DNA from: a virus
Reading direction: 5' to 3' (one strand)
DNA length: 64,000 nucleotides
IMG/VR virus record: IMGVR_UViG_3300027908_000001
Location: 87,167 to 151,166 of that record
The translations under genes were made by a program, and so were the position numbers. The notes below the pieces were generated by a model. It did not search any database and was not told the DNA's origin. It saw only the letters and a program-made list of their open reading frames with translations. Below are positions 9,644 through 36,514 of this stretch, piece by piece; the first letter of the stretch is position 1; each line of letters starts with the position of its first letter.

Positions 9644-11503
9644 TTACTCCACCTTTCCAGAGAACAAACTTAACTCCTCAATCTTCTTGGCCGGTGTCAC
9701 CCGCAGCGCGCGGTCCATCGCTTGGCCTTCAAGATACTCGCGTGAAATGTCGCAGCCGATTCCGTAGACACCAAGTTCCCTAGCGACTTTCAATGTCGTG
9801 CCTGAACCCACGAACGGGTCCAATACGATTCCGGCTACTGGTTCTTGTACCGGACAGTTACAAGTCTGGCGATAACCTTGTAGCCTTGTTTCACTTCGTT
9901 CGCCTTCCTGCACTCTGTCTCCACCATTTACGCCAGTTTTGCCTTTATCGAAAGCACTGTTGTGATGCGAGGCCACCGGCTGGCCGGTTCGCTCAATGAC
10001 CGGGGCATATCCTGCACCGCAAACCGGACAGCACTTCCTCGGTGTGGTGGCCCGAATCAAGCCTTCAATGAGTCCACTGGGAAATGCGGCATAATGGTTC
10101 CCGGTGTAGTTAGACGGCGCGGGTCTCAGGATTGTGTTGGGCGTCCGGTTGGATTCATCCAATTCCTCCAGAACCTCCGGGTGGGTATCCTGCAGCCAGT
10201 TCAAGAGACGAACGAGTTGTCCGCCCTCGGTAGGTTCGACGTACAATACGTTCCGCGGATTGCGCGTGGCGCTGCCGGTAAATATGCTTTGGTCGCTATG
10301 TTTCGTGTCGTTGTGTTTGTTTCCGCCGAACCGGTCGTTGCGCTTACGGATGCCGCTTCGTTCCGCCTCGGGCAGGCTCTTGTTTCCTTCCTGTACCCGG
10401 TCGTAGCGGCCTTCCCAATCCACGTCCACCGCAGGTTCTTTGGCCGCCTCACTGTCCGCGTAGTAATTCATGCCCTTTGTCAACATAAGAACGAACTCGT
10501 GGCTTCGAGTCATTCGCCAAGACCCGTTCCGCAAGATATATCCGCCGGTCGATTTGCATTTGTCGCAGCCCGGACAATCCCTGAACTTGGAAGCGCCGAT
10601 ACCTTCCTCAAAGTAAGCCTCTCGTTCCGCGCGAGATGAGACGCCCAATCCCTGTTTGCCGGTGTTCTCTTGGTGTGGATTATTGGCTCGCTTGGATTTC
10701 TCAATGGGAATGGTGTGCCGCTGCCAGCGTGGACCAGAAATCGATTCGGGCATACATGACCGCTTTCCCCAAATTGCGTCATTGCGAACAGTCCACCCGG
10801 CAGCCTGCGCGGCCAGCATCAACCGGTGCGGAACCCCGATAAGATTGCCCGGCGGTATCCCGGTCTTGCCAGCGAGTGGCGTCCAGCCTTCATCCTGTCC
10901 GAACACCGGCCGGTCGGCTTCCTTGGACAAAGTCGGAGCACTGCGTTCATGGTGCTCTTTGTGTTCGCCCCATGACCCCGAAAAACTGTCGCCCCAGTTG
11001 AGCCACGCCACCCCGTCATCACGGAGCACGCGTTTGATTTCTTGTAAAACCAATAGCAGATGCCAAATGAAATGTTCGACTACTTCTTCGCTTCCGAGTC
11101 CACATCTCAATGCTCCACACTTCCCGCACTGATAACCGCCCAACTTCTCGCGGTTCTTGTTGCCCTCATGCTGGACTTTACCGGGCTTAGTATCACTACC
11201 GCGATGGCCCGGCGGATGAAACTCTCGGCTAAAGTCGTGTTCGCAATTTTCTAACTCTTCCCAAGTCGTTGGACCGGGCACCACAATCGGAGATGTCGCG
11301 CCTGTCATCGGCAGGTACGAACCGCCAATCCAAACGAGGTCTTGCTCGCCGTGATATTTCCGGAGGCCGAAATAGGGTCCGGACGTTACAACCGCGTTCA
11401 CGCTCTTGTCCGCCAGCGGGATTTTATGCGCGCTGGCGCAGATGAGTGCGCCGGTGCTGGTACGAGCCACGACATCGGCATGTGGTAGAATCGGGTCAAT
11501 CAA
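9644..11503 (-). CDS. DNA N4-cytosine/N6-adenine methyltransferase (beta class)
   Basis: 619 residues, TTG start at 11503. The catalytic loop VVTSGPYFGLRKY (39-50) lies N-terminal and the SAM motif LDPFVGSGTT (about 561-570) C-terminal, the beta-class order of the N6_N4_Mtase family. The catalytic motif is TSGPY rather than TSPPY, a substitution at the first proline. The long middle holds cysteine-rich inserts: YQCGKCGALRCG, CPGCDKC and KCCPVCGAGY. At 619 residues it is far longer than CcrM-type enzymes (about 350). The target site cannot be read from sequence. Many promoters here carry GANTC, which makes its specificity worth testing. Confidence 0.9.
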   Translation of the reverse strand: MIDPILPHADVVARTSTGALICASAHKIPLADKSVNAVVTSGPYFGLRKYHGEQDLVWIGGSYLPMTGATSPIVVPGPTTWEELENCEHDFSREFHPPGHRGSDTKPGKVQHEGNKNREKLGGYQCGKCGALRCGLGSEEVVEHFIWHLLLVLQEIKRVLRDDGVAWLNWGDSFSGSWGEHKEHHERSAPTLSKEADRPVFGQDEGWTPLAGKTGIPPGNLIGVPHRLMLAAQAAGWTVRNDAIWGKRSCMPESISGPRWQRHTIPIEKSKRANNPHQENTGKQGLGVSSRAEREAYFEEGIGASKFRDCPGCDKCKSTGGYILRNGSWRMTRSHEFVLMLTKGMNYYADSEAAKEPAVDVDWEGRYDRVQEGNKSLPEAERSGIRKRNDRFGGNKHNDTKHSDQSIFTGSATRNPRNVLYVEPTEGGQLVRLLNWLQDTHPEVLEELDESNRTPNTILRPAPSNYTGNHYAAFPSGLIEGLIRATTPRKCCPVCGAGYAPVIERTGQPVASHHNSAFDKGKTGVNGGDRVQEGERSETRLQGYRQTCNCPVQEPVAGIVLDPFVGSGTTLKVARELGVYGIGCDISREYLEGQAMDRALRVTPAKKIEELSLFSGKVE

Positions 11504-15653: not shown

Positions 15654-17000
15654 TCAGACGATTTTTATTTTCGGCTTGGCTGTCCGAGCGGCTTCACCAG
15701 CGTTTGCGGCTGCTTCGGCGGCACCGGCCTTTGGCTGTGGCGACGTGGCGACATCCAGCTTCTCACGCGGCTTGGCTGATTCCCCGAACAACGTGGTGAC
15801 GGCATCCTTGACATCGGACGCAGGAATAGCCCCGGATTGCGCTACGTTGCCCGCCGGACGGCCTTCCTGCACTTCCACGCTCCATGACCAGCCCGGCTCC
15901 TGATTCGTGTACTTGGCCTTGAGCTTCTTGAACGCCTCCAGTTCGTCCGGTGCCCATTCCGATTCATCGGCAAGCGAAGGTCGGCCTTTAGTCATTTTTC
16001 CGCTGATGACGTAGGAGGGCGCATCCCCAACCACAATGAGAGGAGTTTTCAGCGCGTTGAAGTGTTCCTTTAATTCTTCATGGACACGTTCATACTCCTT
16101 GGCGACAGGCTTGATTTCTTCATGGCGTGCGATGTTCGTGGCCAACTGCTGGTCATTGGCGAAGCGAACCCTCGATTTTGAAATCACGTCCGGAAGACAG
16201 ATGTGGTTGAAGTTGCACTTGCCGCAGATGTCCACGTCGTAGGGTATCCGCTCGGGCAATTTCCACTTGGATTCGTCGGTGATGCCATGGTTTTCTTCCA
16301 CGAACATATTCACCTTTTCCAGCGTGTCGAGGAACTCCTGCGTGGCCTGCAGGTCTTGCGGGATGACGATGAAGCGGAAATGGCCGAGGCAATCCGTTAC
16401 GACCAACACGCACTCTGTTTCTGCGTGGCCGTACATATATGCAAGGCATTGCCGGTAGTAACGAGACAGGAATGCGTCGTGCTTCAAATCATCCACGTTC
16501 TTGCAGTTATCATAGAACATAGGATGCATCGATTTTATTTCCAGCGGGACGCGCCGTGCAGTCCGCCGGTCATTCGGGTCGGTGTAGAATTCAATCTTCC
16601 CGTCAATCTTACCGCTAAGTTTGTAGTGGCGAATCATGTCCGGATGCAGGTATACCTGTTCTTCGACAATCCTGAAACCGAGTTGCTGTCCCAGTTTCTT
16701 CAGTTCGATAATCACCCACTCCTCTTGTCGGTCGCCTTCTTCAAACCGCGCAAGAAGGTGTGCATCAAATGGCTTTTTCTGGTCATACGCTACGAACTCA
16801 TACACGCCCTGCCGCGCGCAAACCGGAATGCTTGAAGCATAATTGTTAGCGCGTGGCGTAGGCTTATTGTTTTTTGAGAGAAGCCGCTCCTCGCGGGCTA
16901 GTTCAATCTGGTGGACAAGCTGCTGGATGGTGCGCGGTACCGGTTTGGCGGCGACCGCCGGAGCCTCGGACTCCAGTTTCAATTCGGTAGTCTCGCTCAC
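15654..17000 (-). CDS. PD-(D/E)XK exonuclease, Cas4/RecB-like with Fe-S cysteines
   Basis: 448 residues from the GTG at 17000 (GTGA overlap with the upstream stop); the open frame reaches 17453 but would cover the upstream gene. The nuclease core is complete: D133 in SGKIDGKIEF, E154-x-K156 in PLEIKSM, and Q184 in YRQCLAYMY. Four cysteines, C61 (SIPVCARQGVYEF), C259, C262 and C268 (CGKCNFNHIC), match the 4Fe-4S arrangement of Cas4/AddB nucleases. The C-terminus is disordered and alanine-rich. Paired with the putative annealase upstream it would make a two-component recombination module, as in Red-type systems. Confidence 0.85.
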   Translation of the reverse strand: MSETTELKLESEAPAVAAKPVPRTIQQLVHQIELAREERLLSKNNKPTPRANNYASSIPVCARQGVYEFVAYDQKKPFDAHLLARFEEGDRQEEWVIIELKKLGQQLGFRIVEEQVYLHPDMIRHYKLSGKIDGKIEFYTDPNDRRTARRVPLEIKSMHPMFYDNCKNVDDLKHDAFLSRYYRQCLAYMYGHAETECVLVVTDCLGHFRFIVIPQDLQATQEFLDTLEKVNMFVEENHGITDESKWKLPERIPYDVDICGKCNFNHICLPDVISKSRVRFANDQQLATNIARHEEIKPVAKEYERVHEELKEHFNALKTPLIVVGDAPSYVISGKMTKGRPSLADESEWAPDELEAFKKLKAKYTNQEPGWSWSVEVQEGRPAGNVAQSGAIPASDVKDAVTTLFGESAKPREKLDVATSPQPKAGAAEAAANAGEAARTAKPKIKIV

Positions 17001-18917: not shown

Positions 18918-18946
18918 AGTATATCATGTATCGCGATTCGAGTCAA
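18918..18946 (-). promoter_or_regulatory. Sigma70-like promoter with CGAATCG spacer element
   Basis: Minus strand TTGACT (18946-18941), 17-base spacer, TATACT (18923-18918): a near-consensus promoter. CGAATCG starts right after the -35, giving a GANTC site. The TGA in TTGACT is the stop codon of the ATP-grasp gene, so this promoter closes the 18.9-24.6 kb operon and starts the replication and recombination block. Confidence 0.75.
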
Positions 18947-19734
18947 CAACTATTTTTTGGCACCAAATGGGCGTTGATGAATTCCATGTCGGATTTTGCC
19001 TCACGCTTGGCTCGCTCGAATTTATCTTCATCGGTCGGCGCATTCGGACAGCCGGGCCAGTGGTAGCTTTGGTCCATTGATGCCATGTCAATCGCGTACC
19101 AGCCCCGGTCGGTATGCAGCCAGTCGAGCGACCATGCACCATCGAATGCCAATGATACCTTTTCACTGAGAGCCGTCAGTTCGGCGATTTCCTCGGGCGA
19201 TTCGGTGTTGATTAAATCCAACACTTTCTCCCATCCGGTTCCGGGCTCGACATGGTTCTCGAACGCTTCCAGCGGCCAGTAAGGGTGATGGCACAGCACC
19301 TTGCCGCCCTTGATGAAGTAGCGCCGCTCCTTGGTCACTGGCATATCATGGAACGCCGTGAACGCGCGCTTGGTCGGCAGCAACTCGCGTACCGCCCAGA
19401 CGTTGTACGGCAGACCTAGCAAGCTGGCCATCTCACCGTACTCTACAATCTCCAAGACATGTTTCTCGATGTCGTCCGCGCTGGTGATGTAACAGGAATC
19501 CTTCCAGCTATGCTTCGCCGAAGTTTGTCCAGAGCGCAAGAAGCATGGTAACCCCATTTTGTTCACGGCATATTTCAGGAGCACCAGCAATTCATCAAAT
19601 CCCTTGGGTCGTTCACCTTCAAACATCATGGCGATATGACATGGGGTCGTCGCGATGAAAGTTTTTGGCACCGGCACACCGGTGGCTTGGAGCTTCGGAA
19701 ACCAGTAAGACAGACAGTTCAGGTAATGTTTCAT
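18943..19734 (-). CDS. ATP-grasp domain protein
   Basis: 263 residues. The central region has the ATP-grasp plan: FLRSGQTSAKHSWKDS, a helix DDIEKHVLEIVEYGEM, NVWAVRELLPTKRAF, ERRYFIKGGKVLCHHPYW, and a late acidic-metal region SLDWLHTDRGWYAIDMA. ATP-grasp enzymes join a carboxylate to an amine or thiol using ATP. The substrate is unknown. It overlaps the PurA-like gene by ATGA, and GGAGGA at the end of that gene serves as its ribosome site, so the two products are probably made together and may act in sequence on one metabolite. Confidence 0.75.
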   Translation of the reverse strand: MKHYLNCLSYWFPKLQATGVPVPKTFIATTPCHIAMMFEGERPKGFDELLVLLKYAVNKMGLPCFLRSGQTSAKHSWKDSCYITSADDIEKHVLEIVEYGEMASLLGLPYNVWAVRELLPTKRAFTAFHDMPVTKERRYFIKGGKVLCHHPYWPLEAFENHVEPGTGWEKVLDLINTESPEEIAELTALSEKVSLAFDGAWSLDWLHTDRGWYAIDMASMDQSYHWPGCPNAPTDEDKFERAKREAKSDMEFINAHLVPKNSC

Positions 19735-21050
19735 ACTCCTCCTCTGGGAAAATCCACAACGCTACCGAGTATCGTCTTGCTCTGGTACGTCGGCCCATTC
19801 GAGGTGATGGTGACCGGCGCGCGCAGGTAACCAGAAACCATGTCCACCAGCCCGGCCTTCTTGACCGGCTCGTAGATGGGCGTGCTACCTGCCAGCAAGG
19901 TGCCCATCCGTTCCTGTGCTTCCACGTCCGGCAACTCGGGTGGCGTGAGATGCAGGGGCGTAGCGCCGACCTGATGGCCGACCCCGACCATGCAGTCTTC
20001 CGGTAAATGGTCCATGCAACTCACCGCCAATGCGTCCACGCCGCCGACGCAATCGACTGCGTACCGGAGCAGCGCCAAGTCCAGCCAGCCGCGCCGCATC
20101 GTGCCCTGCCAGTCATTGTGCGGGTTGTATTTGTCCAACGGAAAATCCAGATGCGTCTCGGTCGGGAACGGCCCGGCTCCGTGGCGCGTCATGTAACCGC
20201 GCAACAATCCGAGCTTGGTGACCGGCCGGTTGTAGCCGCCTTCGCGTAATATCTCCTCGGCGTTGGCAAATGTCGTCGTGGCTCCTGTTGTATGGGGATG
20301 AAAACCGGCCCACTGGTCCAAAAGCACGCCCTGTGCGCCCTCGAACACTGGCGGATACGGGCCGACGAAAATGGCCTTTAGCAGTTTCTCACCGTCCACA
20401 ATGTTCAACCGCCGACTGATTTCCACCAGCTTGTTCAGCACGTAACCGAATACCTGCTCGTCATACAACGTCGAGCGTTCCTCGTCCACTTGTTGATTGG
20501 ATGGCAGACTGAGTGCCTCAACTTCCTTGAGCTTGGTATCGCGTAGCCGCACAAGTTTTTCCCGCAGTTTCTTCCAATCATTTAGGTCGGCCATGATGGG
20601 AGACTGAGCCGGGTCATTGAGCCAGTATTCGACCGTTTCCCAAATTCCCATTCCGCAACTTCCATGTTTTGCGCCCCGCCGCGAGATTTCCTTGAGCCGA
20701 TTAGCCGCACGATGGAACGGAGTGGTGAGCAGGGCACGCCGGTCAATGTAGAGCCGCTGGTACGCATCCTTCACCCCTTTCTTGAAAAGATGAACTTCTT
20801 CCAACTCCAGAGTGAGCGGATTAACCATGACGTGACGAGATAAAAAAGTGATGACTCCGGGTATGAATGTCCCGGAGCCGAACTGGCTGAACGTGTGATG
20901 CCTACCATCGGGAAGTACCACATTGTGGGCGGCCTGCCCTCCGCCGTTGTACCGAATTACGGCTGTGCTCGGCAGGACGCGGCACAGTAAATCAACGCAT
21001 GAGCCTTTGCCCTCGTCGCCCCAGCCAAGTCCCGCCGTAATCACAGCCAT
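19731..21050 (-). CDS. Adenylosuccinate synthetase-like enzyme (PurA/PurZ family)
   Basis: 439 residues (E. coli PurA is 432). The P-loop GWGDEGKG (9-16) keeps the catalytic aspartate (D12), which canonical phage PurZ replaces, and H42 in GGGQAAHNVV is kept where PurA has GGxNAGHT. FEGAQGVLLDQ and TRHGAGPFPTE are typical. The guanine-recognition motif usually written TKLD appears as SCMD (in AVSCMDHL). The aspartate-binding loop is shortened to WQGTMRRGWLD. PurA joins aspartate to IMP; PurZ uses dGMP toward 2-aminoadenine. The altered motifs leave nucleotide and amine donor open. Start at 21050 (GAGG upstream); longer frames would overlap the vWA gene. Confidence 0.85.
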   Translation of the reverse strand: MAVITAGLGWGDEGKGSCVDLLCRVLPSTAVIRYNGGGQAAHNVVLPDGRHHTFSQFGSGTFIPGVITFLSRHVMVNPLTLELEEVHLFKKGVKDAYQRLYIDRRALLTTPFHRAANRLKEISRRGAKHGSCGMGIWETVEYWLNDPAQSPIMADLNDWKKLREKLVRLRDTKLKEVEALSLPSNQQVDEERSTLYDEQVFGYVLNKLVEISRRLNIVDGEKLLKAIFVGPYPPVFEGAQGVLLDQWAGFHPHTTGATTTFANAEEILREGGYNRPVTKLGLLRGYMTRHGAGPFPTETHLDFPLDKYNPHNDWQGTMRRGWLDLALLRYAVDCVGGVDALAVSCMDHLPEDCMVGVGHQVGATPLHLTPPELPDVEAQERMGTLLAGSTPIYEPVKKAGLVDMVSGYLRAPVTITSNGPTYQSKTILGSVVDFPRGGV

Positions 21051-21057
21051 AATAACC

Positions 21058-22068
21058 TCACACCCTTTCGACCGCAGGCGCGCCCGTGTCCGCCGTAGCC
21101 AAGTCCCCGGTGACCTTCGCGGTCTTGGTGATACCGGCTGACCGCGCATACGTCGTCAACGCTTTTGACGCCACCTTGGCCGACCCGGAATCCGTGCCGA
21201 CATCCAGCAGGTCCGCCTCGAACTGGTCCGCATCCAACCGGCCTTCGTTCACGCCAATGATGCCCGCAATGAATTCGCAGACCGCGTTCGCATCGCTCAG
21301 GTGTAGCACGTTCTGCTGAAGCAGTTTCTTCCACGGCCCGAGCACGGCAGCTTCGCCCTGATAAGAAGCACCAGCCGGTTGAATGAAGAACACATTGAAC
21401 TTCTCCTTGAGCTTCGCAACCACGGCTTCAATCGGGATGTCCGCTTCGATGTCCTCGCCGAGCCATTGTTTGGCGTGCTCGCGCGTGACGGAATCGTAGG
21501 GCGCTTCATCGCCGAGGATGAATAAAAAGCCCTTATGACCCCGCTTCTCCACGCAATCCATTGCCGCGTGTTCGGCCAAGAAGTGCATCGCGAGTTGATA
21601 GCTCTCGTGCATCGACCCGCCGCCGTTGCCTTCCAGAATCATCTGGCTCAGGCAATCTTCCATGGTGATGTCCGACTCGAACTGTCCAATCTGGACCGGC
21701 ACGCAGTCTGAGTAACCATCACCGACCGCGCCGAACAAGACGTGCGGATGGTCAACGTACCCCTTGCGGAGCAAGAGCCCCATAAGCTTCGGCAGTGCCG
21801 CCTGAAATATCTTCGGCGTCCCGCTCATGGAGCCGGTCACGTCAATCAACACGGCGATGCCGAGCGATTCCGGATGTTCCTTGCTATCCCGGCTCTCGCG
21901 GATAATCTGACCGGCTTTGTTCTTCTTCTTGGGGTCAAGGTTCTTGTGAACCTTCAACACACCGCTGGCCTTCGATGAATCACTGAAGGCGAACGCGCTT
22001 ATTCCTGTTTTTGCCCGGCTGGTCGCTCGGTCACCGTATGCTGCATCTGTCCAACTTCCTCCGCCCAT
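21058..22068 (-). CDS. von Willebrand factor A (vWA) domain protein
   Basis: 336 residues. The metal-ion-dependent adhesion site is DVTGSMSG (76-83), a DxTxS variant, with GNGGGSMHES and LFILGDEAPYDSVT completing the usual vWA strands. Soluble, no signal peptide. AAGGAGC precedes the ATG at 22068, 12 bases after the kinase-fold stop. In Ter-type and MoxR-type systems vWA proteins scaffold partner enzymes and pair with kinases, which matches this gene order; the actual partner here is unknown. Confidence 0.85.
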   Translation of the reverse strand: MGGGSWTDAAYGDRATSRAKTGISAFAFSDSSKASGVLKVHKNLDPKKKNKAGQIIRESRDSKEHPESLGIAVLIDVTGSMSGTPKIFQAALPKLMGLLLRKGYVDHPHVLFGAVGDGYSDCVPVQIGQFESDITMEDCLSQMILEGNGGGSMHESYQLAMHFLAEHAAMDCVEKRGHKGFLFILGDEAPYDSVTREHAKQWLGEDIEADIPIEAVVAKLKEKFNVFFIQPAGASYQGEAAVLGPWKKLLQQNVLHLSDANAVCEFIAGIIGVNEGRLDADQFEADLLDVGTDSGSAKVASKALTTYARSAGITKTAKVTGDLATADTGAPAVERV

Positions 22069-22080
22069 GATAATTGCTCC

Positions 22081-23142
22081 TTATGTTGTGGGTTGTTTTC
22101 TGGGCCAGTTAAAGACCCGGAATTTTCTGGGGCCGTACAGGGCCTCGATAAGTTCGGTAAATTCATCGAACAACTGCCATGCATCGGATGGGCGACTCGC
22201 TGCCGACTTCATCAGGCATGACCGAAAGAAAGCCTTCATGCGGTTCACGCCCGGTCCGTCGTCGTTCAACAACTGCGAAATGGTAATCGCTGCCATGTAA
22301 ATGTCCAGCCCCGGTGTTACCGCGACCTTGTTCCGAAGTTCTGGAGGATAGCTCACTGCGCTACCGGACGGAATCGCGCGCAACTTCTCGCCGACCTTGA
22401 CCGCGTAGCTCCAATCAATCAGCACGCCGTTGTGGTCCTTCGGGTTAATCAGGAAATTCTCCGGTAACACCGCGCCGTGGACGTATCCAGCTTGGTGTGC
22501 TACGCCGAGCGCCGCCAGTAACCGCCGCGCCATCCACGCTGCATCGCGAGGGTCTATGCCTTCGGGATACGCTTTCATCACGTCGGTCAATGACACGAAT
22601 CCATCAGCGTACTCGAACACGTTGGCCTGCCGCCGCGTGCTTTCGTCGAGCATCGAGAACGCGTCCAGCAGAACCGGAATATGCGGGCATTTGGCCGGTC
22701 CGCCGTTGTGTTTAAGGATGGCCCTTAGCACCGCCGCTTCATTCGCTACGAGGTCGTTGACGCTCGGGTGACGGCTTACCTTGACCAAGATACGCGCGAT
22801 AGAGTGTGTGCCGAGATAGACGTTGCAGAGGTTGTCGGTAGTCAGATGCTGGTCAATCTCATAGATGTTCTTGCCGTTCGTGATGGCGACCTGCATCATC
22901 GGCAGTTTGCCGTACAAATCTTTCGCAATCCGACGGTCCGCAACATCCTTCCATTGCTGGAGCAGGATGAACGCTTCATGCGCGATTTTCTTGTCGGCAG
23001 CCTTCTTGCATTTATCCTCATGGACAATCTTCGCCAGCCTGCGGAACTCAGGGGTCACGTTGTCGGCGAATCCACCAAAGACATCTTCGGGCCGTTTGGC
23101 GTGCGACAGGAAATTGTAGGTGGACTGGAGTTCGGATGTCAT
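22081..23142 (-). CDS. J-domain-like + protein kinase-fold protein
   Basis: 353 residues. The first 70 (RPEDVFGGF, FRRLAKIVHEDKCKKAADKK, AHEAFILLQQW) follow a J-domain with HED in place of HPD. A kinase-like fold follows: K121 (ARILVKV), E135 (ANEAAVLRA), hinge NVFEYADGF, HGAVLPENFL where HRD is normal (catalytic Asp missing, N229 kept), and LIDWSYA in the DFG position (D243 kept). Either a pseudokinase or an atypical kinase. It sits directly upstream of the vWA gene, recalling kinase-vWA pairs. ATGA overlap with the membrane protein before it. Confidence 0.75.
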   Translation of the reverse strand: MTSELQSTYNFLSHAKRPEDVFGGFADNVTPEFRRLAKIVHEDKCKKAADKKIAHEAFILLQQWKDVADRRIAKDLYGKLPMMQVAITNGKNIYEIDQHLTTDNLCNVYLGTHSIARILVKVSRHPSVNDLVANEAAVLRAILKHNGGPAKCPHIPVLLDAFSMLDESTRRQANVFEYADGFVSLTDVMKAYPEGIDPRDAAWMARRLLAALGVAHQAGYVHGAVLPENFLINPKDHNGVLIDWSYAVKVGEKLRAIPSGSAVSYPPELRNKVAVTPGLDIYMAAITISQLLNDDGPGVNRMKAFFRSCLMKSAASRPSDAWQLFDEFTELIEALYGPRKFRVFNWPRKQPTT

Positions 23143-23297
23143 TTCTTCCTCGAAAACTTCCGGCGGAACACTCGCACCATGTCGGGAATGATAATTTTAC
23201 AGAGAAACCAGTACCAAAATGTGAGCGCCAATACGACGATGGGAACCACTATCGTAAGAATCAAAAACCAATTAACGATGAGCAGCAACAGATTCAT
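23139..23297 (-). CDS. Small membrane protein
   Basis: 52 residues: MNLLLLIVNWFLILTIVVPI then a second hydrophobic run LTFWYWFLCKIIIP and a basic end VRVFRRKFSRKK. The ATG overlaps the SMC-like stop and its own stop overlaps the kinase-fold start, both by ATGA, so it is locked into the operon. It may be a membrane anchor for the neighbouring system. Confidence 0.65.
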   Translation of the reverse strand: MNLLLLIVNWFLILTIVVPIVVLALTFWYWFLCKIIIPDMVRVFRRKFSRKK

Positions 23298-24589
23298 TTG
23301 GCGACCACTTCCCCTTCGGACATTTGGATTGCAGCCGGGTCGTTACTCTCGACGACCTCTAAAAAAACCTGTAGGTCAAGCGCCTTGGCCATGTCGAATA
23401 ATGCCTTTTTACTGGCCGTATCGAGAAGCGATGCTTCTTTGATAAAACAGAACCGCAACTTGGGATTTGCCGCCGCCAACAGCGCCACGGCGATGCGCAA
23501 TCGCTTGGCCTGACTCTCCTGCGCAAAAGGTATCCCATTGAACACCAGCTTGCCTTCATGGTCGAGCGACAAACCTTCCACGGGAAACTCGGCATCCTTG
23601 AGCGCCTTCTCGCGTATCGCACGGAGTTCGTCAATCTTCAAGGTCAACCCTTCGCTCTCGGCCTTGGCAGCTTGGAGGTCTTTTGTTACACGTTCGTACT
23701 GGTCGAATGTGGCGATGTCGGTGGCGACTTGTGCCGCGCTGGAAATCTTCTCGTCTAGGTCGTCGAACGTTTGGAAGGCAGGCGCTGCTGTCATTTGTTT
23801 CTGATGATAATCATAGAGGGACTTGGATTTCTCCAGATTCTTCTCGGCAGCTTCCAATTCCGACTTGAGCCGACGCACTTCATTTTCCGCGAAGGTATTG
23901 GCTTCAAAAGCTGCATCCATCGCGTTCTTAATTTGTAGACGCTCGGCATTAGATGACTCTCGCCGCTTCCGCTCGGCAATGACCGCCGTTGTATCTACCG
24001 GCACCGGTCGCTCCGTGGGTATCTGCGTGAACCCGGCGCGTTGACCTTCCAGCTTGGCGACTTCGCGGTTCTTCAATGTGCGCTCATCGAACGTGGTCTT
24101 GACGGCCTGTGCATTCCGGACTAAATCGAGCGGTACCGGGCAAATCTTGAGGAGGTACTTCTGCCGTTCTTCCTCGGTCATTCGGTCGGCGAATTCTTGC
24201 GGGTCCATGAACCCCTTGAACATCGCATTGAGCAACTCGCGCGGCTTACTCAGCGCCGCCGTGGTCTTGTCGCCCACTTTCCCTCGGACGGTCAGGTACT
24301 GGCTAGCTTCCGTCAGGCTGACCTTCACCACAAAATCTTCTGTCTCGGCGATGACGTGGCCTTCCTTCTCACCGGCTCGCAACATCTTCTCGGGCTTCTC
24401 GCCGGTGAACGGCGTCATGACGGATTGGAGGAGGCTGGATTTCCCGCTGCCGTTGGCTCCCGAGACTATCACGAACCCAGAAGGGTCTTGCTCGTCGAAC
24501 CGGAGTTCCACGAGTTTTATCTTCAAGAAATTTGAAACCGATAGCCCAATCAGGTGCTGCGGTCGGTCGGCAGTCGCGGTATCAGTCAT
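23294..24589 (-). CDS. SMC/SbcC-like AAA ATPase
   Basis: 431 residues. An N-terminal half-ATPase has Walker A SGANGSGKSS (43-52) after LIGLSVSNFLKIKL. A coiled coil of about 150 residues runs from about 195 to 345. The C-terminal half-ATPase has the signature-like AQESQAKRLRIAVALLAA and a degenerate Walker B in LRFCFIKEASLLD. This matches phage RecF/RecN/SbcC-like proteins with short arms. It may process or sense DNA ends. First gene of the operon after promoter 24641-24613, with AAAGGAAC before the ATG. Confidence 0.85.
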   Translation of the reverse strand: MTDTATADRPQHLIGLSVSNFLKIKLVELRFDEQDPSGFVIVSGANGSGKSSLLQSVMTPFTGEKPEKMLRAGEKEGHVIAETEDFVVKVSLTEASQYLTVRGKVGDKTTAALSKPRELLNAMFKGFMDPQEFADRMTEEERQKYLLKICPVPLDLVRNAQAVKTTFDERTLKNREVAKLEGQRAGFTQIPTERPVPVDTTAVIAERKRRESSNAERLQIKNAMDAAFEANTFAENEVRRLKSELEAAEKNLEKSKSLYDYHQKQMTAAPAFQTFDDLDEKISSAAQVATDIATFDQYERVTKDLQAAKAESEGLTLKIDELRAIREKALKDAEFPVEGLSLDHEGKLVFNGIPFAQESQAKRLRIAVALLAAANPKLRFCFIKEASLLDTASKKALFDMAKALDLQVFLEVVESNDPAAIQMSEGEVVAK

Positions 24590-24612
24590 GAGTTCCTTTG
24601 CATGTTGCGGCT

Positions 24613-24641
24613 ACACTATCGCGAATCGCGTATGGCGTCAA
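24613..24641 (-). promoter_or_regulatory. Sigma70-like promoter opening the six-gene operon
   Basis: Minus strand TTGACG (24641-24636), 17-base spacer, TAGTGT (24618-24613). The spacer holds the perfect palindrome CGCGATTCGCG. The TGA in TTGACG is the stop codon of the upstream nuclease gene. The next gene start is 24589, giving a leader of about 18 bases that carries AAAGGAAC. Confidence 0.65.
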
Positions 24642-25408
24642 GCGGTATTTTTCGGGGCTTCCATCACCGGCATCGTGGCGACCTTTTCCAGATAGGCGAC
24701 AATGCCCTTGGCCGTCGCCAGTAGGTCGGGAATGCCGCGCTGGATTTTCTCCACACCGCCGCCGCGCACAAAGTTCACGGCATCGCCGATATTACCCGCA
24801 TTCCACCCGATGATGCGGACACCGGCCTTGGCCTCGAATTCCGTTACAGAATCCTTGTAGTGCTTGAGTTCCATTTCCAATCGCTGGATGTCAATCTTCG
24901 CCGATTCCTCGCCGCGCTTTTGGCCCTTGGCATATTCATCCGCCAGCTTCTCCTTGGTCTCGGCCTGTGGTACGACGCGCTCCTTAGCCTTGCGCAGGAT
25001 GGCGGCCAAGAACAATTTGTCTAGCGGTTGCGGCGTCAGCGTCGGCGCTTCGACCTTCACCTTCAACTTGTCGCCATCAGCCACCAATAAACCCCATGTC
25101 GGCGGTAGTTCGCCATCCCTCACAATGTTGTCATCCCCGGCAACTATCCACCAGCGGTCACAGAACCGGCAAATCTCCTCGGCCTTCTCGGGCTGTTTAA
25201 GTTCCTTGACCCAATCGCCCCGGTAACACTTTATCTCGAAGCCGTGAATTTCCAAACCTCTGGACGGCCAGAGGCTCATGGCGATGGCGTCGGCAGTCCG
25301 GTCCACCTTGCGCTGGAAGCCGGTGCCGTTGCGGACTTGCGGGAGGAACGCCCACGCCTCGCCGCCGTAACGTTTCTCCAAGGCGACGGTAAGTTGTGAC
25401 TCGTTCAT
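24638..25408 (-). CDS. PD-(D/E)XK-like nuclease with coiled-coil tail (MmcB-like)
   Basis: 256 residues. The N-terminal domain reads RTADAIAM (38-45), HGFEIKCYRGDWVKELKQP (E58, K60) and CDRWWIVAGDD, a well-known phage and actinobacterial nuclease-like pattern also seen in MmcB-like DNA-repair proteins. The middle is a coiled coil (IDIQRLEMELKHYKDSV) and the end a small helical domain with GIPDLL. Likely DNA processing; activity unproven. ATGA overlap with the gene downstream of it is not seen; its stop lies in the operon promoter. Confidence 0.7.
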   Translation of the reverse strand: MNESQLTVALEKRYGGEAWAFLPQVRNGTGFQRKVDRTADAIAMSLWPSRGLEIHGFEIKCYRGDWVKELKQPEKAEEICRFCDRWWIVAGDDNIVRDGELPPTWGLLVADGDKLKVKVEAPTLTPQPLDKLFLAAILRKAKERVVPQAETKEKLADEYAKGQKRGEESAKIDIQRLEMELKHYKDSVTEFEAKAGVRIIGWNAGNIGDAVNFVRGGGVEKIQRGIPDLLATAKGIVAYLEKVATMPVMEAPKNTA

Positions 25409-34268: not shown

Positions 34269-35114
34269 TTATGGTTTCGCCAGCGCCGGGTTCGGCGTGA
34301 CCAATCGCAGCGACGTGAGGTCGCTCGAACGATTTGGGTCCAAGATGTCCGACAGCGGCACGTAGAAGGAGCCTTTGTCGCCCCACGAAGTTCCCCAGCT
34401 ATTTTCCACGATACCCCACCAAGGAATCGACTTCGCCCACTCTGGCAGCGCCAGCGCCGCGCCTTGGCTGTGTACCTTTTTCAGGTCGTTGGTGTATCCG
34501 TTCAGATACACTTCGTGTCCTCCGACAATGGATTCATCTGTGCCGGGAATGGGAACAATGCCGGTATCAGCCACGGTTTGCGACTCAAAACTCTCACCCA
34601 CGGAAAATCCGTAGGCAATTCCGAGCCCTTGCTGCAAGCAGTAGAACACCTTGCCCGCTCGCTGTTCCATGCCCCAATACTGAAGCAGGCGGTGCTTGGC
34701 TGCGTCATCCCACGCAGACTGCGGAGGGCTGAGCGTGAACTTCGTGATGTCGTATGGCCAGAGTTCCTCTGTGCAAACACCATTGTGTTGCAGCGCATGT
34801 ACGCCGTCAATGCTCATTGCTCCGGCGTCGGAATCAATTGTGCCCTCGCGCATGCGCTCACAAAGATATAGCATCAATCGAGATGGCGTGAACATTGGAG
34901 CACCGGCCTTCAGGAGCGCATACATCAAGGCGCGCGCGAGCGCATTAGCCGTACAGGAACCGAGTTGACCTTGGTCAAAAATAGGCACCGCAGCATTGTT
35001 GCGATTATCCACCACTGGGATGGTTGCAGAATCGGCGTCATTGGTTTCCGTGAATTGCGGCTTGTGCGGCAGACTCGGCCTCCAGCCATATCGCGCTATT
35101 TTTCTGGGTGTCAT
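34269..35114 (-). CDS. Papain-family (C1) cysteine protease
   Basis: 281 residues. The catalytic triad and oxyanion elements are plain: FDQGQLGSCTANALA with C54, VGGHEVYLNGY with H200, and VENSWGTSWGDKGSF with N238. No signal peptide or long propeptide is visible, so it may act in the host cytosol or be virion-borne. It is co-directional with, and overlaps by ATGA, the glycosyltransferase-sulfotransferase gene. C1 peptidases are rare in phages; the target is unknown. Confidence 0.85.
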   Translation of the reverse strand: MTPRKIARYGWRPSLPHKPQFTETNDADSATIPVVDNRNNAAVPIFDQGQLGSCTANALARALMYALLKAGAPMFTPSRLMLYLCERMREGTIDSDAGAMSIDGVHALQHNGVCTEELWPYDITKFTLSPPQSAWDDAAKHRLLQYWGMEQRAGKVFYCLQQGLGIAYGFSVGESFESQTVADTGIVPIPGTDESIVGGHEVYLNGYTNDLKKVHSQGAALALPEWAKSIPWWGIVENSWGTSWGDKGSFYVPLSDILDPNRSSDLTSLRLVTPNPALAKP

Positions 35115-36514
35115 ATCGTCATTCCTCTCGTTGGTTTAATTTCTGGAACATCCTTGGTCACGTTCTCGTTAGGAAATTCTGCATCGGGCACCGGTACATC
35201 GAGGAACTTGCATAGGTCGTTCCAACGATATTCAATGTCCTCGTCGGTGTTTACCACCAGCAAATCGTCAGGCCGGTCCTTGAAGTAATCCAGCACCTCG
35301 GCATTGTGTCGGCGATAACGCTCAAGGAATGTGAGCGCGTCAAAGTCGCGACGGCCGTAAATGATTCTGTGAATCTGGTGCGTAAACGGGTCCGAGTTCC
35401 ATGCCGACTTAAACGGGTTGGTCGGCGCGCTCCAATGCCGCTGTACGCTGCGGAGCCAATCGACTTCGTTGCGGACCGTCAGGATGAACTTCGAGCCCGG
35501 ATAGGCGATGTTCAGTTCGCGGAACAGCACCGGGATAGGCAGGTCGCACAGTGCATAAAACTTTTCCAGTGTCGGCGATTTGCCGCGTTCGGTCATCTCC
35601 CTCCAGATGGCCTTGGCCCAGTGCGCCGTTTCCCAGTGACCGCTGGAGAATCCCAAGAGCTTGAATGCTTCGTGAAGAGAAGTCGTGGCGGTCTTGTGCA
35701 TGCCGATGCCAAAGATGCGCGTGGGCACCGGCTTGAGCGAGGTGGACTCGGGAGAGAAATTCTTCCACACTGTGCCGCACCCGATACGGCCCTGATTGAC
35801 CACGGTCGCGTTCGGGTCCAGCCCGAACACTTCCTCGTAAGATACCAGCGCGGCATGCTTGTACTCGCGGAACCGCATCTTATCGTTGTGCATGACGGCG
35901 CGCAGATAGGAAGCGGGAATCTTGCGGCCGTCGACGCCCATGCGGCGTAACCGGGCGTTGAAATCCTTGTCGTCCGGTGAATGAGTTTCGTACTTCTCGT
36001 CGTACCCACCGGACTTAAGGAACGTATCCGCCGACACCACAATGCGTCCGCTGATGCCGCGCGGCAAACGGCCTTCGCCGTCCTTAATCATCTCGGCCCA
36101 GAGAAAGATTTCCTCCTTCGCCTGCATGAACTGTTCGGCGATGTAACGCGCGAACCCCGGTCCGGTAAAGTTGTCCGCATCGAGGTTCACGAGGATGTCC
36201 GCGCCTTCAAGGATGCCGCAACGATGAGCCATGTTCTTGGCGTGCGCCATGCGAAACGGACCGGGCTCGCGGTACTGGTAGAACGCGACCCTGCCTTCCG
36301 CCGATTCTTGAAAGAAATTTTCCTTCATGAATTCGGCAAGGTTGTCTGGAGAATTGTAATCCAGCACGACGAACACCGCGTTTGGATAATCGGCGTTATC
36401 GGCCAGATTCTTGGGCAGCGTAAGCTGGAGATGCGGAGTCCTCCCCTTGACGGTGGTGCAGAAAGCTATCCTCGGCACCTTGGAGCCAAGGGAGGTGAAC
36501 GGAACGGATGACAT
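35111..36514 (-). CDS. Glycosyltransferase-sulfotransferase fusion
   Basis: 467 residues, two enzymes in one chain. Residues 1-260 form a GT-A glycosyltransferase: DYNSPDNL, MAHAKNMAHRCG, metal-binding NLDADN (110-115), YDEKYETHSPDDKDFNARLR. Residues 265-467 form a PAPS-dependent sulfotransferase with P-loop GIGMHKTATTSL (269-280), FILTVRNEVDWLRS as the 3'-phosphate site and a final HNAEVLDYF...DLLVVNT region. It could add a sugar and then a sulfate to one glycan. Nearly leaderless promoter directly ahead. Confidence 0.85.
   Translation of the reverse strand: MSSVPFTSLGSKVPRIAFCTTVKGRTPHLQLTLPKNLADNADYPNAVFVVLDYNSPDNLAEFMKENFFQESAEGRVAFYQYREPGPFRMAHAKNMAHRCGILEGADILVNLDADNFTGPGFARYIAEQFMQAKEEIFLWAEMIKDGEGRLPRGISGRIVVSADTFLKSGGYDEKYETHSPDDKDFNARLRRMGVDGRKIPASYLRAVMHNDKMRFREYKHAALVSYEEVFGLDPNATVVNQGRIGCGTVWKNFSPESTSLKPVPTRIFGIGMHKTATTSLHEAFKLLGFSSGHWETAHWAKAIWREMTERGKSPTLEKFYALCDLPIPVLFRELNIAYPGSKFILTVRNEVDWLRSVQRHWSAPTNPFKSAWNSDPFTHQIHRIIYGRRDFDALTFLERYRRHNAEVLDYFKDRPDDLLVVNTDEDIEYRWNDLCKFLDVPVPDAEFPNENVTKDVPEIKPTRGMTI

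Follow-up and report, generated by a model that had tools for sequence, protein, structure and literature searches.

A recurrent gene triad of phages and bacteria that joins a divergent adenylosuccinate synthetase paralogue to a vWA protein and a J-domain pseudokinase

Do six leftward genes that lie side by side in a viral genome belong to one system, and what might its central enzyme make? The question is raised by a stretch of 64,000 nucleotides (the window), which spans bases 87,167–151,166 of the 197,395-base IMG/VR record IMGVR_UViG_3300027908_000001. A preliminary description had recognized here a six-part set encoding an SMC-like ATPase, a membrane peptide, a J-domain kinase, a vWA protein, an enzyme resembling adenylosuccinate synthetase (AdSS, or PurA) and an ATP-grasp ligase. 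The set holds in part. A core of three genes, all on the minus strand, almost certainly constitutes a conserved system: a J-domain pseudokinase (22081–23142), a vWA protein with a metal-ion-dependent adhesion site (MIDAS; 21058–22068) and a divergent PurA paralogue, hereafter PurA-like (19731–21050). The ATP-grasp gene probably belongs with them, and the SMC-like and membrane-peptide genes do not recur.

A three-gene unit in phages and bacteria

Relatives were collected by alignment-based scans of IMG/VR seeded with PurA-like, from which the best 80 of 478 relatives were taken, and with the vWA protein, from which the best 80 of 330 were taken. Together with named phages, and following removal of duplicates, these scans gave 128 viral loci; the counts describe the relatives with the highest scores, and the remotest relatives may differ. 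The PurA-like and vWA genes occur together in 125 of the 128 non-redundant loci. Of the remaining three, one has vWA only, and two, both located at contig edges, have PurA-like only. Scans seeded from either gene agree. The kinase gene was found in 90 loci, where the same-strand order is kinase, vWA, PurA-like in 83 and vWA, PurA-like, kinase in seven. Antisense open reading frames (ORFs) in GC-rich loci generated spurious families of neighbours, which were set aside.

The system extends from about 190 cultured mycobacteriophage records with PurA-like, vWA and kinase to hundreds of viral contigs and scattered bacteria. For instance, Bixzunavirus I3 has the order of the window, with the kinase, vWA and PurA-like proteins encoded by genes 270, 271 and 273 and a small gene, 272, before the last. 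Tonenili carries the three in that order as well, and the vWA–PurA-like pair is also found in Rhizobium and Vibrio phages. A C1 genome announcement lists the kinase and PurA-like genes as conserved in all C1 phages, with no comment (PMC9476963). As the preliminary description supposed, no account of the set, in its six-part or its three-gene form, was found in the literature searched, where subscription journals are mostly not covered, and an earlier description of the kinase–vWA–PurA-like set elsewhere is possible. I3, Tonenili and a third phage, Pinkcreek, grow on M. smegmatis, which makes product and phenotype directly testable.

Bacterial copies were sought with the motif YxTRHG[AN]GP, which is specific to the PurA-like clade. 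At least 592 stretches of bacterial genomes contain it, from Chloroflexota, Actinomycetota, Planctomycetota, myxobacteria and candidate phyla, and plasmid-borne copies occur in Rhodococcus, Tsukamurella, Agrobacterium and Acetobacter. The gene is rare, however, in that a search of 198 Actinomycetota genomes returned the seed genome as the sole match. The vWA gene lies beside PurA-like in 68 of 79 non-redundant bacterial loci, and 47 of the 79 keep the full kinase, vWA, PurA-like order. The refuting condition of the preliminary description, genes scattered without a conserved order, fails for the core: the order recurs in non-redundant loci of both kinds, 83 viral and 47 bacterial. In an internal control within the same bacteria, vWA genes adjoin 12 of 13 PurA-like loci and no canonical PurA locus. 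Canonical PurA was additionally present in all 16 bacterial genomes tested.

In a phylogenetic tree, the PurA-like clade is separated from canonical PurA plus PurZ by a split with a support of 0.996. Phage and bacterial sequences are intermixed within the clade, which points to exchange of these genes between phages and bacteria. Some of the bacterial loci may themselves be prophages.

The active site of the PurA-like enzyme

The PurA-like protein (phrog_1211; Pfam Adenylsucc_synt, E 1e-53) could be taken for a plain phage AdSS that raises host AMP synthesis, and RefSeq and PGAP annotate it so. Its AlphaFold2 model (pLDDT 94.6) has the PurA fold over its full length, with AdSS as the best match in the Protein Data Bank (PDB; TM ~0.8). 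This role is nevertheless very unlikely, given scores far under the cut-offs of the curated NCBIfam purA models (138 vs. 402 bits and 135 vs. 395 bits), the separate position of the clade, its near-obligate vWA partner and its tie to a pseudokinase, its coexistence with a full canonical PurA in carrier bacteria, and the loss of the loop that binds aspartate.

The residue analysis covered 113 viral sequences with <70% identity and 77 bacterial sequences. Positions follow the numbering of E. coli AdSS, which is assumed here from established knowledge and was transferred through two canonical PurA sequences. The Asp13, Lys16, His41 and Gln224 equivalents are kept in at least 112 of the 113 viral and in 76–77 of the 77 bacterial sequences, and those of Thr239 and the guanine-binding Asp333 are kept as well. 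In the window's protein, D12, K15, H42, Q240 and D347 correspond to catalytic Asp13 and His41 and to GTP-site residues, each present in 112–113 of 113 clade members. The aspartate loop, in contrast, has been rebuilt from the canonical TTGRxRR to (W/F)QG-x-(F/L/M)R: the R303 column is empty in 113 of 113 viral sequences, T301 is replaced by Q, and R305 mostly by F, L or M. Outside the loop, R143 is lost, N38 becomes Q, V273 becomes H and K331 becomes C or H. The bacterial sequences display the same pattern. R143 and R303 are known positions of interest, since structures of the R143L and R303L mutants of E. coli AdSS exist in the PDB. Seven polar residues are invariant and specific to the clade (Q39, H52, H129, R284, H290, N309 and Q315), and they look like the lining of a new substrate pocket. 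A PurA paralogue that has lost its aspartate site while keeping the phosphoryl-transfer machinery suggests a purine reaction other than the textbook one.

PurZ and PurZ0, the enzymes for 2-aminoadenine (Z) genomes, are likewise phage-encoded PurA relatives with a changed specificity, and RefSeq gives one product name, 2-aminooxy adenylosuccinate synthetase, both to the PurZ of phiVC8 and to the PurA-like clade (L007:8986-10314, L012:23081-24112). The shared name is an annotation problem, and together with the label adenylosuccinate synthetase applied by PGAP and RefSeq, it hides the clade. The window's protein scores 17.8 bits against the NCBIfam PurZ model, for which the cut-off is 300. The clade keeps Asp13 where phiVC8 PurZ has a serine (Ser14) and Asp333 where PurZ has Asn. 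PurZ structures are distant (13–17% identity, TM 0.50–0.61), PurZ falls on the other side of the 0.996 split, and the PDB titles of PurZ structures record bound aspartate or its analogue hadacidin, for which the PurA-like clade has no loop. An enzyme of the PurZ type is thus exceedingly improbable. Membership of either family was rejected on scores, residues, tree and fold, and since the residues for transfer from GTP are kept and the aspartate-binding loop is lost, the clade is probably neither an AMP-making PurA nor a Z-base PurZ.

A different role for PurA-type chemistry, which targets 6-oxopurines, would be the re-amination of deaminated purines such as ITP, dITP or hypoxanthine NAD, whereby the damage of deaminase-type defences would be repaired or countered. 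Loss of R143 and the N38 and V273 changes around the phosphate and ribose site could admit di- or triphosphate or dinucleotide substrates, and genes of NAD salvage are among the neighbours described below. However, the loop for the nitrogen-supplying aspartate is gone throughout the clade, and no lyase of the PurB kind recurs beside PurA-like as a partner, which leaves re-amination improbable.

Partner proteins, neighbours and a tentative mechanism

The kinase-like partner (phrog_3043) matches Pfam Pkinase at the cut-off. In its family, 20 of 51 members match DnaJ and 32 of 51 match Pkinase, and the HPD motif of J domains is present in ~88% of the viral members. The catalytic Asp of the HRD motif, on the other hand, is kept in only 6 of 94 viral proteins; it is A or G in 76, and A at the same position in 35 of 50 bacterial ones. 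The name "J-kinase" given to the window's protein was right in kind, although this copy has HED in place of HPD and reads HGA, without the catalytic Asp, in its kinase domain.

The vWA protein (phrog_2971, E 8e-80) matches no Pfam family, and its AlphaFold2 model (pLDDT 92.8) has a fold that matches vWA and integrin I domains. Its MIDAS residues are strongly conserved (D-x-T-G-S in 99–100% of members, D187 in 100%), as is an N-terminal Met-Gly, found in the window's copy and in 122 of 123 viral members overall. In Pinkcreek, the vWA gene (gene 241, L293:2062-2826) contains an in-frame intein of ~255 aa immediately ahead of the MIDAS IFIGDE motif; the intein begins with Cys and ends with Ser-Asn before a Cys. 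Other C1 mycobacteriophage records show the same two-piece vWA match, in some of them with the intein just before the GDE motif. Inteins are commonly located in functional motifs, and their position here agrees with the importance of the GDE motif.

A vWA protein and a kinase-fold protein encoded in one operon, and a suggested nucleotide-derived signal, are also features of the Ter/TerY-P triad (PMC7824862 and general knowledge), and with an ATP-grasp protein added the window resembles the Ter parts list. A stress module of this type can hardly be entertained, though. The window's six genes include no PP2C, TerB/C/D, PRTase or HAD gene, in line with the preliminary description as far as Ter core genes are concerned. 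The scan of these genes together with their flanking ones, and the list of recurrent downstream families, likewise gave no Ter core gene or PP2C. The kinase is, moreover, a pseudokinase with a J domain, and none of the recurrent neighbours is a Ter gene; a Ter-type system was rejected on these grounds. Methylation-associated defence (MADS) was likewise rejected, with 34.6 bits against a cut-off of 460 for the MAD6 kinase and weak matches to the PADLOC mad3 and mad6 models.

Two kinds of accessory neighbours recur. Directly after PurA-like, the window has an ATP-grasp ligase gene (18943–19734, minus strand) whose product matches R2K_3 (PF14243, E 8e-7) at 29.8 bits, above the Pfam gathering threshold of 26.3. 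In 17 of the non-redundant viral loci, this position is taken by an R2K_2 ATP-grasp gene. Because an R2K ligase recurs in this position, the window's ATP-grasp is probably part of the system. The paper describing the R2K clade (PMC4431377) mentions no association with vWA or PurA. An ATP-dependent DNA ligase at first appeared to be a further partner, in 28 loci, and was dropped when a stricter profile left 14 matches at inconsistent positions.

The second kind concerns NAD. A NrtR-type regulator (NUDIX plus NrtR_WHD) lies ≤150 bp away in 17 bacterial loci, and nicotinamide/nicotinate phosphoribosyltransferase (NAMPT) genes lie within 6 kb in ~10 of the 128 non-redundant viral loci. About two such loci would be expected by a rough estimate that assumes a 12-kb stretch of a ~200-kb genome and the frequency of NadV reported for medium and jumbo phages, 22–33% (PMC9503650). 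In phage L013, genes for NrtR, vWA, NadM, NAMPT, PurA-like and kinase form one run, reminiscent of NrtR-regulated NAD salvage operons. The difference is that none of the three core proteins is a known enzyme of NAD salvage, and most loci are without NAD genes. The NrtR, NAMPT and NadM neighbours of some bacteria and phages suggest a link of the system to NAD or ADP-ribose. The window's phage has a NAMPT gene for NAD salvage of its own (G000:C1:3670-4527), far from the triad.

On these data a mechanism can be proposed tentatively, with a probability of about one in three. PurA-like would activate a purine-like carbonyl oxygen with GTP, as the retention of Asp13, Lys16, His41, Gln224 and the guanine-binding Asp333 suggests. 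It would then couple a nucleophile other than free L-aspartate, yielding a purine conjugate, given that the aspartate loop no longer has Thr301, Arg303 and Arg305 and that Arg143 is missing as well. Where an R2K ATP-grasp is present, the product may be extended or conjugated through an amide bond. The vWA protein and J-domain pseudokinase would act as a non-catalytic chaperone or adaptor pair, in which the J domain recruits the Hsp70 of the host and the MIDAS metal holds a target. In infected cells, the setting is likely to be NAD+/ADP-ribose or nucleotide stress.

The main rival is a role of PurA-like as a sensor or switch for GTP or purine nucleotides that is no longer a ligase. In this reading, vWA and J-pseudokinase would form a complex with regulatory or chaperone function, directed against a nucleotide- or NAD-based defence in phages and mounting such a defence in bacteria. 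A GTP site kept beside a lost aspartate site would suit a sensor, as would a pseudokinase and a vWA protein as partners, NrtR and NAD salvage genes as neighbours, and a patchy distribution (none of 197 additional Actinomycetota genomes matched) with bacterial copies also on plasmids. Against it, Asp13, Lys16, His41 and Gln224 are phosphoryl-transfer residues and almost invariant, the clade-specific polar positions resemble a substrate pocket, and no PADLOC defence model fits PurA-like or vWA. A sensor is possible, if on the whole doubtful.

Several observations weigh against the ligase mechanism or against the system as outlined. For 35 of the 125 viral PurA-like and vWA pairs, no kinase gene was found, and the kinase may be either optional or too divergent to detect. 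No protein fusions among the core genes were found. The J motif of the window's own kinase is degenerate and has no DnaJ match in Pfam. Most triads have no R2K gene beside them, and with the profiles used, no match was obtained between the R2K_3 of the window and the R2K_2 that recurs elsewhere. NAD genes and NrtR lie near the core in a minority of loci, and no NUDIX protein was found in the window's genome. Finally, an enzyme without this aspartate loop might bind aspartate in another way or have lost its ligase activity.

A special case of the ligase mechanism takes the N-terminal Gly of vWA as the nucleophile, in view of the near-universal Met-Gly noted above, such that PurA-like would modify an amino group of a protein with a purine nucleotide. 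The J-pseudokinase and Hsp70 would then be the loading machinery and the ATP-grasp a further ligase. This version is given very little credence; if true, it would amount to a post-translational purine tag of a new type.

Gene layout and flanking genes of the window

The six leftward ORFs lie where the preliminary description placed them. Adjacent genes overlap by ATGA at three junctions and are separated by 12 and 7 bases at the remaining two, and a purine-rich ribosome-binding site precedes most of the starts. Co-transcription of the six genes as one unit is plausible. Two promoters had been proposed to bracket the block, and as described, their TTGAC -35 boxes contain stop codons, that of the preceding gene and that of the ATP-grasp gene, respectively. 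The downstream promoter, which belongs to the next unit (18918–18946, minus strand; TTGACT-17-TATACT with CGAATCGCGATA at 18929–18940), is a good sigma-70 match (10/12, with an extended TG -10). The operon's own candidate promoter (24613–24641, minus strand; TTGACG-17-TAGTGT with CGATTCGCGATA at 24617–24628) has a weak -10, reaches 8/12 and was missed by the sigma-70 promoter scan.

The 7-mer CGAWTCG, by which both promoters had been defined, occurs at chance level (22 sites vs. 19.3 expected) and was rejected as a mark of promoters. The longer 12-mer CGAWTCGCGATA is unusual: the 197,395-base record contains it without mismatch just three times, always on the minus strand. Two of these copies bracket the six-gene block (18929–18940 and 24617–24628) and one lies elsewhere (G000:C1:185727-185738). 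TTGAC is found just upstream of every copy at variable spacing, and the 12-mer is perhaps the operator of a phage regulator.

The first two genes of the block are co-directional with the core and lie outside it. The SMC/Rad50-like ATPase gene (23294–24589, minus strand; phrog_1499, AAA_23 E 7e-8) did not turn up in any locus of the relatives at the sensitivity used, and the 52-aa membrane peptide (23139–23297, minus strand) has no family match and no detectable relatives in those loci. The six-part operon was consequently rejected as the conserved unit. In other phages, relatives of the SMC-like gene adjoin exonuclease, SSB, RecE or RecT genes, and the window's copy is probably a recombination gene. 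Its absence from the relatives' loci and its company elsewhere leave DNA sensing, the role assigned to it in the preliminary description, without support; the modified purine metabolite of the same proposal is consistent with the changes in the active site.

Directly upstream of the SMC-like gene lies a gene for an MmcB-like protein of the DNA-repair type (24638–25408), and a Cas4-like exonuclease is encoded at 15654–17000, which suggests a recombination neighbourhood. Elsewhere in the window, an N6_N4_Mtase DNA methyltransferase (9644–11470) exceeds its profile match by several hundred residues, perhaps through an inserted domain or an unusual architecture, and a protein encoded at 35111–36514 combines a sulfotransferase domain with a weak glycosyltransferase match.

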